Source of the DNA: a virus | Direction: 5' to 3' (one strand) | IMG/VR virus record: IMGVR_UViG_3300048587_000067 | Coordinates: 1 to 24,873 of that record | Length of the DNA: 24,873 nucleotides | In this document: one piece after another, positions 3,414 to 23,734 of the stretch | Layout: the number at the start of each line of letters is the position of its first letter | Numbering within the stretch: position 1 is the stretch's first letter | Made by a program: the position numbers and the translations under genes | Notes under the pieces: model-generated | The model's input: the letters and a program-made list of their open reading frames with translations, nothing else | Database searches by the model: none | What the model was told of the DNA's origin: nothing

Positions 3414-5426
3414 TCAGCGCTGCTGGTTATCTTCAGCGCGAGCGCCGCTCAGGGATTGAAGCGCTGGAACGCCCCCAGCCTGCTCCCCGCCAACGCTGGC
3501 GAGCCGCTTATCGAGAGACCGAAGGGAATTGAAGAGTTGTTTGTTGTTCGTGACAACCCTGACACCCTTGAGAATTACGTCTGGGTCACGCGAGACCAGC
3601 ATCTCCGCAACTCTCTTGGCGAGGCGTTCATTCACGGTGTTTCGACCCCTCGCCGCCCCGTAAACAAGCGCAGCGGTCATCACCGCTTGGGGGTCGGGAT
3701 TAAACGGATTGAAGCCTGACGATACGGTATAGGCACCGCCAGCGAGACCAAGTTCCTGAAGTTGCCGCGCCGTGGTCGAATTGCCCTGAACGGCGGTGCG
3801 CGCAAGGTCCATAACACCCTCTACACGTAGCTTCGCCTCTAGCTCCCTTGCCTTGTGCGGACCCATAGCAAGGTCAAGCTTCTGTCGCGCGGCGGGGCTA
3901 TCAGCAATCTGATTGAGAATGGATCGACGATCACCAGCGCGGTCAAGCGTCTCCATAAATCGAGACACAAATCCATCCTGGAAAAGCTTTTGCTCCGCTG
4001 ACGACATTTTGGCGAGAGCGGCGCGCGTCTCAGGAATTGCAAAGTTCGCCGTAACAAAGTTCTGCCCTGCCTCAAGCGCATTCTCCGCCTGAAAGAATTT
4101 TGCAGCGCCTGAACGAGCCGTATTGTAGCTCGGAACTAGCTCATCCAGTTTTTCACGTAGCGATTGTGAGAATGCGCGAGCCGTTGGCGTATCGATTTTA
4201 TCAAGCCCGCGCTTCACGTAATCCCAAAGCTGAAGACTAGGCAGAATTGTATTCCCCGCCTCCGTCTTCTTCAGAATCGTTCGACCATCAACAACGTCGA
4301 ATGCTCCCTTCGGGGGAGCCATTCCGTCTTTCACAGCCCAATTACGAAGCTGTGGTAGCGCTACGCGGATCGCCGCCTGCACCTCCGGTGCCTGCGCGAG
4401 TTGCCTCAGGTCGTCATCCCAAAGGACAACCTTGTTTCCATCCTTGTAGGCCGCTAGATAAGCGGGCCGATTAACAACCTTGCGAGTTGCCTCAAGAGCC
4501 TGCTGCTGAGCGAACGCATCTGGGTAATTGAAGGACGAGCGCAGAAAATCGTTTATGCGGGCCGCCTGCCCCTCAAAGCGCTCGTCAATTGCGCGGGTAA
4601 GTGCCCCGCGACCCTCTGGGGAGGTATTGGCCGATGATCTAGCCAGCGCGCGAGTGGTTTCGCCGCCGATGTCCATTATCCGAGCCGGGCCGCCAGCCGC
4701 AGAGCTTTGCGCAAATTCAGTTGGCGTAAGTCGATTCACTGCAGCCGGATCGGATTCAACATCGCGTTGCAGGGCCATAACGACACGGCGCGCGGCCTCG
4801 TCGTCGGTTTGCCTAACACCACGAACAGCATCAGTGATCGGCCGCGCAATAGCTCGTGTGCCGCGAACAACACTCTCGACAACCGCAGGGGCCGCCGCGC
4901 CAACAGTCGCGCCTAAGCCCGCGCCAACAATTCCCCGAGAAGCACTATCTACAAACCCCTGGCCCTCACCGGCACCATAGGCCGCGCCAGTGCCGGCGCC
5001 AACCGCTGCGCCTCGTGCAACGCGAGCGGGAGCGGTAGCGGCATTGAGGGCCGCGCCCAAGGGGAGCGCTACTGCGCCGACAACATTCCCGCCCAAGGTC
5101 GAGTAAGGACGCTGTTCTTGGTATGCTTCGTCAACCTTCCTCTCTCGACCGGCGGCCGTATTGTATTTTTCAACTGCCTCTGGATTGCCGGACCAATATT
5201 TTGCAGCCCCCGCGACAAGGGATGAAAGACTGGCGGGGTCTTTCGGATCAAGCCCGCCGGCCTCCATCAATCCGCGAAGCTCATCGTAGAAGTTGAATGT
5301 AGCGCCTTGCGCGGCACCCCGCGCCGCAGCCTCACCCATGCCAACTGAGGGCTGTTGTGGCTTCTGCTGAAAATCAGACCAAGGCCCAGCCGTCGCTGAC
5401 TGGAACGCAGTCCATGGTCCATCCAT
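3414..5426 (-). CDS. Large internal virion / DNA ejection protein
   Basis: 670 residues. The N-terminus has two tryptophan repeats (GPWTAF, GPWSDF) followed by GMGEAAARGAAQGATFNFYDEL. Two Gly/Ala-rich hydrophobic stretches lie near residues 108-155 and 165-188, the kind of membrane-active segment found in podovirus proteins that are ejected with the DNA and form the trans-envelope channel. The rest is long, charged and mostly helical. The start overlaps the upstream stop by one base (TAATG). It is the third gene in a run of three that occupy the place of the injection genes in P22-like phages. There is no lysozyme or transglycosylase motif that I can see. The function is inferred from composition and position. 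Confidence 0.65.
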   Translation of the reverse strand: MDGPWTAFQSATAGPWSDFQQKPQQPSVGMGEAAARGAAQGATFNFYDELRGLMEAGGLDPKDPASLSSLVAGAAKYWSGNPEAVEKYNTAAGRERKVDEAYQEQRPYSTLGGNVVGAVALPLGAALNAATAPARVARGAAVGAGTGAAYGAGEGQGFVDSASRGIVGAGLGATVGAAAPAVVESVVRGTRAIARPITDAVRGVRQTDDEAARRVVMALQRDVESDPAAVNRLTPTEFAQSSAAGGPARIMDIGGETTRALARSSANTSPEGRGALTRAIDERFEGQAARINDFLRSSFNYPDAFAQQQALEATRKVVNRPAYLAAYKDGNKVVLWDDDLRQLAQAPEVQAAIRVALPQLRNWAVKDGMAPPKGAFDVVDGRTILKKTEAGNTILPSLQLWDYVKRGLDKIDTPTARAFSQSLREKLDELVPSYNTARSGAAKFFQAENALEAGQNFVTANFAIPETRAALAKMSSAEQKLFQDGFVSRFMETLDRAGDRRSILNQIADSPAARQKLDLAMGPHKARELEAKLRVEGVMDLARTAVQGNSTTARQLQELGLAGGAYTVSSGFNPFNPDPQAVMTAALVYGAARGRNTVNERLAKRVAEMLVSRDPDVILKGVRVVTNNKQLFNSLRSLDKRLASVGGEQAGGVPALQSLSGARAEDNQQR

Positions 5427-6463
5427 TATTGCTTAATCCAATTTGCCTGATCAGCCGGGTCGCCGCCGTTAAAGCGGTAGCCCTGCCTGACTTCACCAAC
5501 CTGCGGCGCACCGGAAGGGTTCTGCGCTTGCGGCTGACCGCGCGGGACGATGTTGCCCTGTGCGTCAAAACTTGATTCCGGCCGATAACCGCGCCCCGCC
5601 CCCGCGCCGATGCCCTTGATAGCCTCCATACGGTTAGCGCGCTTTTGCTCAATCACATCTTGTGTATCGCCCGGCATTGGAAAGTATTGCTTGTTGGCGT
5701 TGTCAAACTCGGAATCAGAAATGACCGCGCCAGATTCACGACGAAGAGTAGCGTTGATGAAGTCGCGCTGCGCTTGGTCAAACTTCTGGAATTCAGGCCC
5801 GCGCATATTGTAGCCGGTCTTGTCCGACATTAGGCCTTTATGACGCTCCCACCAGCTAGTACCGGCCGCCTCAACGCCACGAAGAACCTTCTCTGACTTC
5901 AGCATCCGGTTTGTATAGAGAGCCGCCTTGGACTCTTCATCCTTCATGGGGCCGCCAGTGATGAAGGGATTGTTAGCCGCCCCGGTTGCCCCAGGCACAG
6001 GGGGCTGACTAATTGCCCCTGTCTTCCTATCAATGAGCATGGGCACCTTTTGACCGCTGGCATTTTCAACAATCTGAATATCTGGCCGATTGCCCTGCTC
6101 TTTCTGAAACTCGAATTGCTGGCGCTGAAGGTCGCGCATTGCGGCTGTATTGGCCGCAGACACACCTAGCTGCCTCTCCTGCAGCCCGTAAGATCGGTCA
6201 GCGTTCTGCTGCGCACGCTGCGCTTCAGTTTGACGGAATCCAAAGTCTCGCTCGTTGTTTCCGAGCTGCGCCAAGCTCATTCCTTCTTGAGCAAGTCCAG
6301 CAGCGAAAAGACGACGAGCCGCGTCCGAATAGTTGATGGGTCCGCCCTGCCCTAGCTCTGCTAAAGCGGCCTCACGCGTTGCGTGTTTGCGAGCGTCGCG
6401 ATAGGTTGCCGGCAAATCCCCGAGTGACGAAAAATCCAGACGAGGAACGGTTAGCTCCGCCAT
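5426..6463 (-). CDS. Internal virion / injection protein
   Basis: 345 residues from the ATG at 6463, directly after the upstream TAA with no spacer. The N-terminal half is a long charged helical region with many Gln, Ala and Arg (QTEAQRAQQNADRSYGLQER, then LQRQQFEFQKEQ), probably coiled coil. The C-terminal half holds QRDFINATLRRESGAVISDSE followed by FDNANKQYFPMPGD. That block recurs in phage internal/ejection proteins of alphaproteobacterial podophages as I remember them. The tail is Gly/Pro/Gln-rich. The gene is between two other predicted ejection proteins and is coupled to both. The exact role (pilot, channel or scaffold inside the head) cannot be told. Confidence 0.6.
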   Translation of the reverse strand: MAELTVPRLDFSSLGDLPATYRDARKHATREAALAELGQGGPINYSDAARRLFAAGLAQEGMSLAQLGNNERDFGFRQTEAQRAQQNADRSYGLQERQLGVSAANTAAMRDLQRQQFEFQKEQGNRPDIQIVENASGQKVPMLIDRKTGAISQPPVPGATGAANNPFITGGPMKDEESKAALYTNRMLKSEKVLRGVEAAGTSWWERHKGLMSDKTGYNMRGPEFQKFDQAQRDFINATLRRESGAVISDSEFDNANKQYFPMPGDTQDVIEQKRANRMEAIKGIGAGAGRGYRPESSFDAQGNIVPRGQPQAQNPSGAPQVGEVRQGYRFNGGDPADQANWIKQ

Positions 6464-7138
6464 TTATGCAGCCCTTCCCGCAGCGCCGCCAAGGAAGCCC
6501 GTACCAAGCTTCGCGAGATTAAGACCGAGATTCCAGATATTGCCCGAGCCCTGCATTTCAGCGTTTGCCGATTGAGTAGTCTGATTGTTCTGTCCGGTAG
6601 CCACGCCACTAGCGAGGCCGACGCGCTGAGCGGCATCATTCTGGAATACCCCTGCCCGCCCGGTCTCTACGCCTGCAATGCCACTCGCCGCCCCCATTTC
6701 AGGATTGATCAACCCTGCAAGGCGGCTCTGCCAGTTTCCATACTCCTGATTGGCGAGACCCGTAACGGTATTGAGTGTGTCAATCGTGTTATTGCCAGAG
6801 GCCAACATACCGCGTGAATTTGCGCGCCTATCAAGGGCATCCAGAGACTGATTAACCGCGAAATCATAGCCGGGACCTGTCTGGAATGAATCCACCGCGC
6901 GCTGATTGCCTTCGGAACCATTCACACCAAGGCTATCAAGATATAGGTCTGTCCCCGCGCCATACTTTGCAGCCAGTGGGTCGAACGCACCACGCGCAGC
7001 GTCCAGAGATGCCAATGCGCCAGTCTTACCGGCATTCAGATAGCCCATGCCCTCGGTCTTGAGTGCATCGAGACGGCCGATGTTTTGAGCGGCGGCGTTC
7101 TTTGCCGGCTTGCCAGTGAATACGTCGAATATCGAAAT
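6464..7138 (-). CDS. Injection/internal virion protein with probable ATT start codon
   Basis: The first ATG in frame is at 7048, but the frame is open 30 codons further and reads ISIFDVFTGKPAKNAAAQNI, a natural phage-protein N-terminus. The only workable start there is ATT at 7138-7136. It is preceded by a perfect AGGAGG (7149-7144) with a 5-base spacer, and an in-frame TAG overlaps that site, so translation cannot begin earlier. With ATT the protein has 224 residues. It is Gly/Ala/Asn-rich with helical stretches (SLDALDRRANSRGML) and a Gly-rich end (LGTGFLGGAAGRAA), fitting the first of three ejection-type proteins. The stop is immediately followed by the ATG of the next gene. The start call is from sequence; the function is from context. 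Confidence 0.65.
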   Translation of the reverse strand: MSIFDVFTGKPAKNAAAQNIGRLDALKTEGMGYLNAGKTGALASLDAARGAFDPLAAKYGAGTDLYLDSLGVNGSEGNQRAVDSFQTGPGYDFAVNQSLDALDRRANSRGMLASGNNTIDTLNTVTGLANQEYGNWQSRLAGLINPEMGAASGIAGVETGRAGVFQNDAAQRVGLASGVATGQNNQTTQSANAEMQGSGNIWNLGLNLAKLGTGFLGGAAGRAA

Positions 7139-7150
7139 AGCAGCCTCCTA

Positions 7151-7417
7151 TCAGGCTATGCGAGCAAACTCGCCATACGCATTCATTGCGGCGGCTTGTC
7201 TCGATTGAACTGCATCATCAAAGTTTTTGAAGCGGCCAATACGTCTGGACTTGCCAGAGATGCGAATGGTCGCGGCCCATGATTTATGGTGACCGTCCCA
7301 GCTCACGCCCTTGACGCCGCTTGTGTTGTCTCGCCGCAATTTTGAATTGGCAATATTTTGGCCGTTAGTTGCCAGTCTCAGGTTTGCCGAGGCTAACTTC
7401 TGGCAGCGCGCGAACAT
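7151..7417 (-). pseudogene. AP2-domain remnant of an HNH homing-type endonuclease
   Basis: 88 residues. The N-terminal part has NLRLATNGQNIANSK (12-26), the usual link after an HNH core, then DNTSGVKGVSW (30-40) and an AP2-like DNA-binding domain through SRRIGRFKNFDDAVQS (57-72). The catalytic HNH part (the His/Asn motif normally just before NLRLAT) is absent, because the frame upstream runs within about 35 bases into the end of the preceding structural gene. This looks like the C-terminal half of a phage HNH-AP2 free-standing endonuclease that lost its nuclease domain. It could still bind DNA. No good ribosome site precedes the ATG at 7417. The TGA stop directly abuts the AGGAGG of the next gene. 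Confidence 0.7.
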
Positions 7418-7452
7418 CAGACCGCATTCAAGATTCCCATATCGTTTAGTCC

Positions 7453-8061
7453 TTAAGGGCCGAATGAGGCCGCCAACAAAACCGGAAACGGAGTTGCTCC
7501 GCCGACCGCGCTAATCCCGTGCCCAACGGCACCGGTCGTGAATTCGCGATGGGCGAATGACATACTTCCTACCGAGCCGTTGATGATAGTGTTATCGATG
7601 TCCACGCCCGACCATACGGTGCCAGCCCCACTGTAAAATCGCGTGGACAGAACGACACCATTGTCTGGGACATTAAGGTTCACAACTGATGCTGCTGACT
7701 GCGCTGTGTCATGCGCAGCGGCGGCCTCATAAACCGCGTAGATGACTAGATGATACGAGCTAGATGTTCCGGCAATTGCTATTGTGCCAGTTGACCCGTT
7801 CGGCACGCTAGCAAAGCAGGCAAACCCAACGTTCAGAACATTGCCTTGAGAGGCAAGAAAGCTACCGGAGACGCCCCCAATCGTTGCGCCGGTAATCGTT
7901 CCGCCGTCTGTAGCATTCCCAATGAATGCAACGATCTTTCTGTTAAGATCGGCATTGCCGAACGGAACGTTCGTGTTATTTGTGCTACCGGTAGCGGTTG
8001 AGTAGACAAGCTCAGCCGAAACAGACGATCTTGTCAGAACCGGAACAATATTGAAGGTCAT
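7453..8061 (-). CDS. Phage virion-associated protein, beta-rich, function unknown
   Basis: 202 residues, rich in Thr, Ser, Gly, Ala and Val, with alternating hydrophobic strands (KIVAFIGNATDGGTITGATI, TIAIAGTSSSYHLVIYAVYE). It has no signal peptide or transmembrane segment. The composition resembles jelly-roll or Ig-like virion proteins such as decoration or tail proteins. The ATG overlaps the upstream TGA (ATGA). It lies between the gp10-like neck genes and the ejection genes, so a tail-needle, plug or head-surface role is possible. I do not recognise the family. Confidence 0.55.
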   Translation of the reverse strand: MTFNIVPVLTRSSVSAELVYSTATGSTNNTNVPFGNADLNRKIVAFIGNATDGGTITGATIGGVSGSFLASQGNVLNVGFACFASVPNGSTGTIAIAGTSSSYHLVIYAVYEAAAAHDTAQSAASVVNLNVPDNGVVLSTRFYSGAGTVWSGVDIDNTIINGSVGSMSFAHREFTTGAVGHGISAVGGATPFPVLLAASFGP

Positions 8062-20905: not shown

Positions 20906-21057
20906 GCAACGTCCTTGCTATCGAGATTCCGCTTTGCAAGTTCGAGGTAATAAAGCTCCCGGACCTCTTCCAATTTGACCGGCGTAAGTTCAATGGCTTC
21001 CCCGAATATCTGCTTGGCAATGCGCCTGAGCATTTCGTCTTCGGTCTCTTCGGTCAT
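20902..21057 (-). CDS. Small acidic helical protein
   Basis: 51 residues, [20 protein letters not shown], then [20 protein letters not shown] and RNLDSKDVA, almost wholly helical and acidic. Both ends overlap neighbours as ATGA (start in the HNH-like gene's stop, stop in the TSCPD gene's start), so it sits exactly in a 150-base gap of a coupled operon. No family recognised. The perfect coupling at both ends makes it a convincing gene although short. Confidence 0.6.
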
Positions 21058-21578
21058 TTGGCCCCGCCGTTGTCAGGTTTACTGCGTCGCATTTTTCTAT
21101 TTTTTGCTTGCGTACTTAGAGAGGCCCACCGGCAATTATTGGGCTCATAATTTCCATCTCCATCAATTCTATCGAGCGTGTAGCCAGCTGGACGCTCACC
21201 CATATCAATTAGAAAATTCGCAAACTCCCTCCACCTCTCGCATACTGAAATCCCGCGGCCACCATAATACTGGTAACCGCGGCTGCTTGGTTGTGTGCAT
21301 CTCGACCACATTGAGCGCCACGATGAATATTCCCGGGTGCGCCCGGATGAGCCACCGTGCTTATTAGGACGGAGTTTGGCCGATATGCTTGCCTGACAGC
21401 CGCAGCTTTTTGTGGCGCCGCGTCGCAGGTTGTTGCCAGTTACAATGGTTGTGTTTCCGCAGTCGCAAATACAGCGCCAAAGCGCCTGATTGTTTGGGTG
21501 CGTACCAGAGCGCTCCACGACCACAAGCCGGGCAAATCGCTGGCCCGTAACATCCTTCAGCGCATAATCTCTTCTCAT
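21054..21578 (-). CDS. HNH-like endonuclease with N-terminal Cys cluster
   Basis: 174 residues. The N-terminal part has [15 protein letters not shown], then WRCICDCGN (35-42) and TKSCGCQ (57-62), five cysteines (36, 38, 40, 59, 61) that could form a zinc site. The central part has [20 protein letters not shown] and [13 protein letters not shown]. The C-terminal part has [20 protein letters not shown] (133-152), matching the 'DRID..GNYEP.NCRWAT' core of phage HNH-like proteins. The usual first His of the HNH motif is not evident; the 'DRID' Asp may take that place. Such genes are often selfish insertions, but here both ends fit the operon's ATGA overlaps. Confidence 0.7.
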
Positions 21579-23601: not shown

Positions 23602-23643
23602 GAAAAGATGCCGGCGGGAGGAGTTGCCTCGACTCCCGCCGGC
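23602..23643 (-). terminator. Strong hairpin, possible leader terminator
   Basis: An 11-pair perfect stem GCCGGCGGGAG (23610-23620) / CTCCCGCCGGC (23633-23643) with a 12-base loop. On the minus strand it is followed by AT then CTTTTC, a weak T-run. It lies just upstream of the small membrane gene, so it could be an early-leader terminator subject to antitermination. Confidence 0.45.
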
Positions 23644-23734
23644 CATGCGCACGTTTGGGGGAGGAGTAACGCGCGCAAGCTGGAATAAAAGGACCGCATT
23701 GGCGCGGTCAGTTTGCTTGCAGCCAGGGAGGAGT
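23616..23734 (+). repeat. Three copies of GGGAGGAGT
   Basis: Exact 9-mers at 23616-23624, 23659-23667 and 23726-23734, 43 and 67 bases apart, in a noncoding stretch. They look like ribosome sites on the plus strand, but none precedes a start codon at a good distance. They may be binding sites for a phage protein. Confidence 0.4.
23686..23709 (-). terminator. Intrinsic terminator-like hairpin
   Basis: On the minus strand GACCGC, GCCAAT loop, GCGGTC, then CTTTTATT. A six-pair perfect stem with a T-rich tail lies upstream of the stronger hairpin at 23610-23643. Together they could stop leftward transcription before the early operon. Confidence 0.5.

Follow-up and report, generated by a model that had tools for sequence, protein, structure and literature searches.

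Predicted AUH start codons recur in a phage ejection gene family and are associated with homing endonuclease insertion

Gene content of the ejection locus

The window, meaning the whole stretch of 24,873 nucleotides analysed here, is a complete viral contig from a soil phage. Its minus strand carries, in order, the terminase large subunit, the portal, the major head protein and head-closure genes, and, behind these, a pair of variable genes, an AP2-domain remnant and genes of 224, 345 and 670 codons (Table 1). The assignment of the 224-codon gene product as a DNA ejection-type protein, putatively a virion or injected protein, holds on its phrog_598 match, which the homologue L178 also gives (E 4e-8). 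The order of head closure, ejection gene and two larger genes is met in similar form in MW202785.1. A comparable small-medium-large set after the head-closure genes is formed by gp7, gp20 and gp16 of P22 (229, 471 and 609 aa; PMC8954989), although sequence similarity to the 224, 345 and 670 aa products of the window is weak (phrog_598). Structure prediction of the ejection protein gave a mean pLDDT of 40, too low for use.

Table 1. Positions of the predicted ejection gene, its start region and neighbouring features in the window
Feature	Position	Strand	Basis and remarks
DNA ejection-type virion gene (putative)	6464..7138	-	224 codons from ATT; phrog_598 'DNA ejection', E 9e-9; N-terminal 30 residues conserved in ATG-initiated homologues
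ATT start codon (predicted)	7136..7138	-	About ten distinct close homologues have ATG in this column; ATH there in 20 distinct protein-found homologues (28 with leader-pattern matches)
AGGAGG Shine-Dalgarno	7144..7149	-	Read from sequence; 5 nt before ATT
Tandem in-frame stops TGA TAG	7148..7153	-	Close the AP2 ORF and overlap the Shine-Dalgarno; stop-TAG-GAG-GCT arrangement also in most ATH leaders
AP2-domain remnant of an HNH-AP2 homing endonuclease, without HNH part	7151..7417	-	phrog_99, Pfam AP2; L239 and L200 have intact HNH_3+AP2 here
7-codon ORF ATGGGAATCTTGAATGCGGTC-TGA (MGILNAV), AAGGA site ahead	7417..7440	-	Possible relic of the original start
Gene without family match, upstream of the endonuclease remnant	7453..8061	-	ORF list and profile searches
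Second gene of putative ejection cluster, 345 aa, ATG start	5426..6463	-	Position only
Third gene of putative ejection cluster, 670 aa	3414..5426	-	phrog_5880, E 8e-80

An ATT codon in the start column

Read along the minus strand, the AP2 ORF ends with TGA (7153-7151) and is followed by an in-frame TAG (7150-7148), which overlaps a perfect AGGAGG (7149-7144); the spacer CTGCT (7143-7139) then leads to ATT (7138-7136), in exact agreement with the original prediction. The upstream ORF terminates 12 nt before ATT. This AGGAGG is the only full Shine-Dalgarno (SD) ahead of any gene start in the window, where the other listed genes have ATG, GTG or TTG starts and weaker SDs. An AGCCT/AGGCT inverted repeat surrounds it that, by eye, is not kept in other leaders. 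The first in-frame ATG (7048-7046) is codon 31 of the ejection gene, which stops at 6464, and no ATG, GTG or TTG lies in frame between the TAG and that ATG. The earlier claim that ATT is the only workable start needs a small correction, since ATA, the third codon and 11 nt away from the SD, is also near-cognate; homologues, however, carry their ATG in the column of ATT. T4 gene 26 provides a known internal AUU start in a phage structural gene, where it serves as an additional start within a gene that has an AUG as well. Unlike that case, the ejection gene has no in-frame start upstream of ATT before the stops; its AUU would be the primary start, and ATH (ATT, ATC or ATA) occupies this position in many phages.

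In protein searches of viral and genome contigs, homologues at 34-78% identity have ATG exactly in the column of the window's ATT, and about ten distinct close ATG-initiated homologues share the N-terminus M-G-x-F-D-x-F/L-T-G-x-P-A-K. The 30 codons open ahead of the first ATG had been taken to encode a natural N-terminus, and their residues are indeed conserved in these homologues; residues 2-30 of the predicted product include SIFDVFTGKPAK. The mechanical ORF list begins the gene at the 7048 ATG, dropping 30 residues, and this favors translation from that internal ATG, or another canonical codon, with the upstream 30 codons untranslated. When this was tested, the homologues were found to start at the ATT column, 30 codons earlier, and to conserve the next 30 residues, thereby refuting an internal-Met start.

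ATT is one base from ATG and adjoins an endonuclease remnant, and it might reflect faulty sequencing or assembly, or a start that no longer works because the gene is decaying. However, a near-identical second contig that differs by 9 SNPs over 12,663 bp retains ATT, and no other SD in the window is as strong as the intact one ahead of it. Many other phages carry ATC, ATA or ATT ahead of intact ORFs under purifying selection, and one ATC sequence recurs in several separate metagenome contigs (L243-L247). This explanation is largely refuted and appears highly unlikely. The alignment of the 30 residues with ATG-initiated N-termini, taken with the second ATT contig, indicates that ATT is more than chance.

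Start codons across homologues

The ATT start is not private to the window but recurs in the gene family, mostly as ATC and also as ATA and ATT, with a leader that is nearly fixed. Among 133 distinct homologues found by protein, pooled and de-duplicated, 113 have ATG, 20 have ATH (16 ATC, 3 ATT and 1 ATA) and none has GTG, TTG or CTG; the pool was partly seeded by ATH members and its members are related to one another, so these counts are not population frequencies. L104 and L106 (∼55% identity) have ATC behind the leader TRATAGGAGGCTnnn. A scan that required this leader, then ATH, then the N-terminal pattern returned 29 contigs, nearly all with ejection genes lacking an ATG, and contributed eight further homologues, for 28 distinct ATH cases. 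With GTG, TTG or CTG in place of ATH, this leader yielded no ejection homologue. A second scan by protein, in which the leader was not used, gave 45 ATG, 14 ATC, 2 ATT and 1 ATA, with 3 unresolved. ATH is also found in two prophage homologues in bacterial genomes, L330 (ATA) and L331 (ATC). A few distant homologues occur in annotated phages; none of the five checked has ATH, and L360 has a comparable N-terminus with ATG.

The head-closure gene of the same phages served as a control and has ATG in 78 cases, GTG in 21, TTG in 4 and CTG in 2 (27 GTG/TTG/CTG), with no ATH. The contrast between the two genes is strong (Fisher 1e-13, relatedness ignored), and ATH usage is specific to the ejection gene as compared with the closure gene. 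Apparent ATH starts in control genes were rejected because the alignment was off and the ATG lay two or three codons farther upstream. The open-access literature yielded no description of AUH starts in ejection genes of phages. Callers restricted to ATG, GTG and TTG would truncate the ejection protein, which amounts to a systematic annotation error.

Shine-Dalgarno strength and leader types

ATH is always paired with a strong SD, most commonly in the form TRATAGGAGGCTnnn-ATH. AGGAGG is present in 17 of the 20 protein-found ATH leaders and in 25 of the 28 distinct ATH homologues, eight of which were found by a pattern requiring AGGAGG. Median SD duplex energy is -10.2 kcal/mol for ATH as against -6.5 kcal/mol for ATG (p 4e-7), while local RNA folding is alike in the two kinds of leader, both in stability and in SD accessibility. 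Phage-encoded tRNAs able to read AUH as a start were absent from the window and 27 related loci. The exact leader pattern is absent from 392 genomes of the bacterial family that carries the prophage homologues; the homologues in these genomes have ATG or, in two, a second leader.

This second type, GGAGTRYGTGTC-ATH, precedes ejection genes without ATG in the prophages L330 and L331 and in L226, L268 and L275. In L268, L275 and L330 an in-frame GTG lies three codons before ATH, but it is an unlikely start because it overlaps the SD.

The association between leader and start raises the possibility that AUH is a real but poor start, hitch-hiking with a horizontally spread strong-SD leader and devoid of regulatory meaning. 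In favor of this explanation, distantly related proteins have almost the same leader even outside the SD, and ATH has a scattered distribution on the protein tree. Yet ATH also occurs with the GGAGTRYGTGTC leader, which argues that it is not simply carried along by one leader. Moreover, reversion to ATG takes one base, yet the common leader with ATG at the same 3-nt spacing is confined to one dissimilar group of 361-364-aa proteins (MGLFDIFTGDPVKKAA), besides unrelated genes. Hitch-hiking is a serious contender all the same, though somewhat short of probable.

A different arrangement is seen in L380-L383, L385 and L386, where an unrelated phage gene (VGLLDRLA..., ∼624 aa) begins with TTAGGAGGCTAGC-GTG and a conserved inverted repeat, CGTGTAGTCGTACACG, lies ahead.

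Codon-level selection at the ATH boundary

Pairs of ATH sequences have a pN/pS of 0.12 over codons 2-10 and 0.16 over codons 2-30, like ATG phages, as against 0.92 over codons -8 to -4 and 1.6 over codons -3 to -1. Because pN/pS is low after ATH and high before it, selection at the amino acid level begins directly after ATH, which places the predicted beginning of translation at this codon. L236 and L238 (both ATC) and L240 (ATG) encode an identical protein over the columns of the tree, and their first codons after the start differ synonymously only. Selection of this strength in codons 2-30 is a further argument against the internal ATG. Downstream of ATH, the median position of the next ATG, GTG or TTG is about codon 51 and the farthest is codon 200; in several phages (codons 94-200) starting there would delete much of the protein. 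An internal canonical start has next to no chance of being correct.

Every non-ATG codon in the start column is an isoleucine codon, and the ORF ahead frequently shares the frame of the ejection gene. Both facts would fit an internal Ile codon that ribosomes reach from the upstream gene by stop readthrough, frameshift or splicing, with only synonymous Ile codons tolerated in consequence. Against this stand the tandem stops (TGA/TAA-TAG), the differing families of the upstream genes, the lack of amino-acid-level selection just upstream and the alternation of ATG and ATH in the same column. Near the start, no RNA family or intron match to Rfam was obtained in the window or in L104, L106, L132, L150, L093 and L007. 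An internal Ile codon is thus a very improbable explanation, and a start codon at this position is preferred.

Probable homing endonuclease insertion at the start codon

The remnant upstream of the ejection gene matches the phrog_99 HNH endonuclease profile (E 6e-26) only over positions 192-265 of 383, the AP2 part, and Pfam AP2 with 21 bits, under the curated cut-off. Pfam detects no HNH nuclease domain in it, whereas this domain is present in L239 and L200; shortened remnants are found in L106, L202 and L243 as well as in the window. An HNH-AP2 gene or its C-terminal tail (HGxFARxA) lies directly upstream in 9 of 28 ATH cases but in 4 of 113 ATG cases (p 6e-5). For the remaining 19 ATH cases, which lack any such trace in that position, an endonuclease route is presumptive.

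One clean pair of occupied and empty sites was found. In L239 (occupied), an intact HNH_3+AP2 gene opens with the ATGGGC that belonged to the ejection gene; its left flank agrees with the ejection leader of L240 (empty) at 56 of 60 positions, with ATGGGC following in both, and the L239 ejection gene picks up again after TGATAGGAGGCTGTC-ATC. Mobile nuclease genes have apparently taken over the original ATG of the ejection gene. The suggestion that an insertion or deletion near the AP2 remnant cost the window's gene its ATG gains support from these relatives, which have an intact HNH-AP2 gene at the same place (L239 against L240).

The MGILNAV peptide of the 7-codon ORF is similar to the N-termini of ejection proteins, for example IGILDAL in L196, and this ORF may be a relic of the ejection gene's original start. 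Such a relic would imply insertion after codon 7 and not directly after the ATG, which counts against insertion at the start codon in the window. HNH-AP2 genes occupy the same place in L248, L149, L163 and L273, where their 3' end supplies a new ATG (e.g., AACTGATG) and not ATH.

Evolution of the ATG/ATH state

A tree of 140 proteins, a quick one with several long branches, requires 25 ATG/ATH changes, 20 of them forced by well-supported branches, which is no fewer than with shuffled labels. Start and leader differ even within pairs of near-identical proteins, and they appear to be exchanged as one block. Start switches from AUG to AUH rank with the rarest changes seen in prokaryotic genes. 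Across 36 genome groups, one AUU was counted among 61,358 ancestral AUG starts, compared with 363 GUG (PMC5622118); at this rate of AUG to AUU change, repeated point mutation is not credible as the source of ATH. One virion gene has thus made or inherited the predicted AUG-to-AUH switch at about 20 or more points of the tree, always with a strong SD and never with GTG or TTG. The wider finding is this recurrent switch in one phage gene family, associated, as sequence comparison indicates, with homing-endonuclease insertion at the start codon. Endonuclease genes are known at exchange boundaries (PMC10448857). As in free-standing HNH-AP2 homing endonucleases, HNH_3 and AP2 are combined here beside an essential gene; in contrast to those, the element appears to sit at the start codon, use the gene's ATG and leave an AUH start.

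Proposed origin and function of the AUH start

The best explanation of the whole, and one that is very probably correct, is that the ejection gene has an SD-compensated AUU start of the IF3 class, like infC, left behind by endonuclease insertion. AUU would be read by initiator fMet-tRNA, guided by the perfect AGGAGG five bases ahead, to give a product beginning fMet-Ser-Ile-Phe-Asp, perhaps aided by the upstream termination. The third base of AUU, AUC and AUA does not pair with the initiator anticodon, and these codons would be subject to discrimination by IF3, for which the strong SD would compensate. Such compensation has been described for GUG and UUG starts (PMC5622118) and would be of the same kind here, but for much weaker codons. 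Few copies of the protein are expected per virion, and SD and weak start together would probably set its synthesis at a modest, possibly IF3-responsive rate. In P22, the ejection proteins are injected in about 12, 12 and 30 copies (PMC8402733), and by analogy a low output of the ejection gene may suffice. To our knowledge, no AUH start is known in the P22 ejection genes.

The probable origin is recombination and not a lone point mutation. An HNH-AP2 gene would have entered at the ejection start codon and seized leader and ATG, and at the 3' border of the endonuclease the displaced ejection gene would have been left with a different ribosome site and with AUH as its start. In the window's own lineage, the endonuclease would later have decayed to its AP2 tail. 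A stronger version is tentative, and on balance doubtful. It holds that HNH-AP2 endonucleases specifically target the ejection start codon, take leader and AUG for their own expression and carry a 3' replacement ribosome site with AUH, and that selection then maintains the weak IF3-class start, so that many phages would have a virion gene under translational control of the infC kind.

Starts other than NUG are disfavored by IF3, and the infC gene, which starts with AUU in Escherichia coli and AUC in Streptomyces, is repressed by IF3 (PMC5472188). The ejection gene shares with genes of the infC type an AUU, AUC or AUA at a conserved start and a strong SD at normal spacing (AGGAGG, 5 nt). It differs in being a virion gene and not an initiation factor, so that no autoregulatory loop arises, and in a start that flips repeatedly with ATG in close relatives. 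The weakness of the GTC start of Streptomyces sigR sets the protein level via IF3 (PMC5472188); this start is likewise non-NUG, but codon, gene and purpose differ, and the ejection gene has the compensating SD. In the bacterial family carrying the prophage homologues, which is considered as background and not as a host assignment for the window, infC has a conserved ATT (GCC-ATT-CGC-CGC) at the expected start with GAGGAG-type sites ahead (L362, L364-L367, L369 and L379). In L366, ATT also stands in place of the alternative ATG found nearby in the others, which leaves no alternative ATG there. The ejection genes constitute a natural, replicated system for studying the purpose of weak starts, the relation of IF3 to phage late genes, and how a mobile endonuclease can enter a gene at its start codon and yet leave it functional.

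Other features of the window

Two minor features lie elsewhere on the minus strand. A 174-aa ORF at 21054-21578 has CxCDCG...SCGC cysteines and by eye resembles small phage HNH/AP2-type proteins, with no Pfam match. The alphaproteobacterial sRNA ar14 of Rfam matches positions 23602-23720 over its full length, but weakly (31 bits against a gathering threshold of 59).
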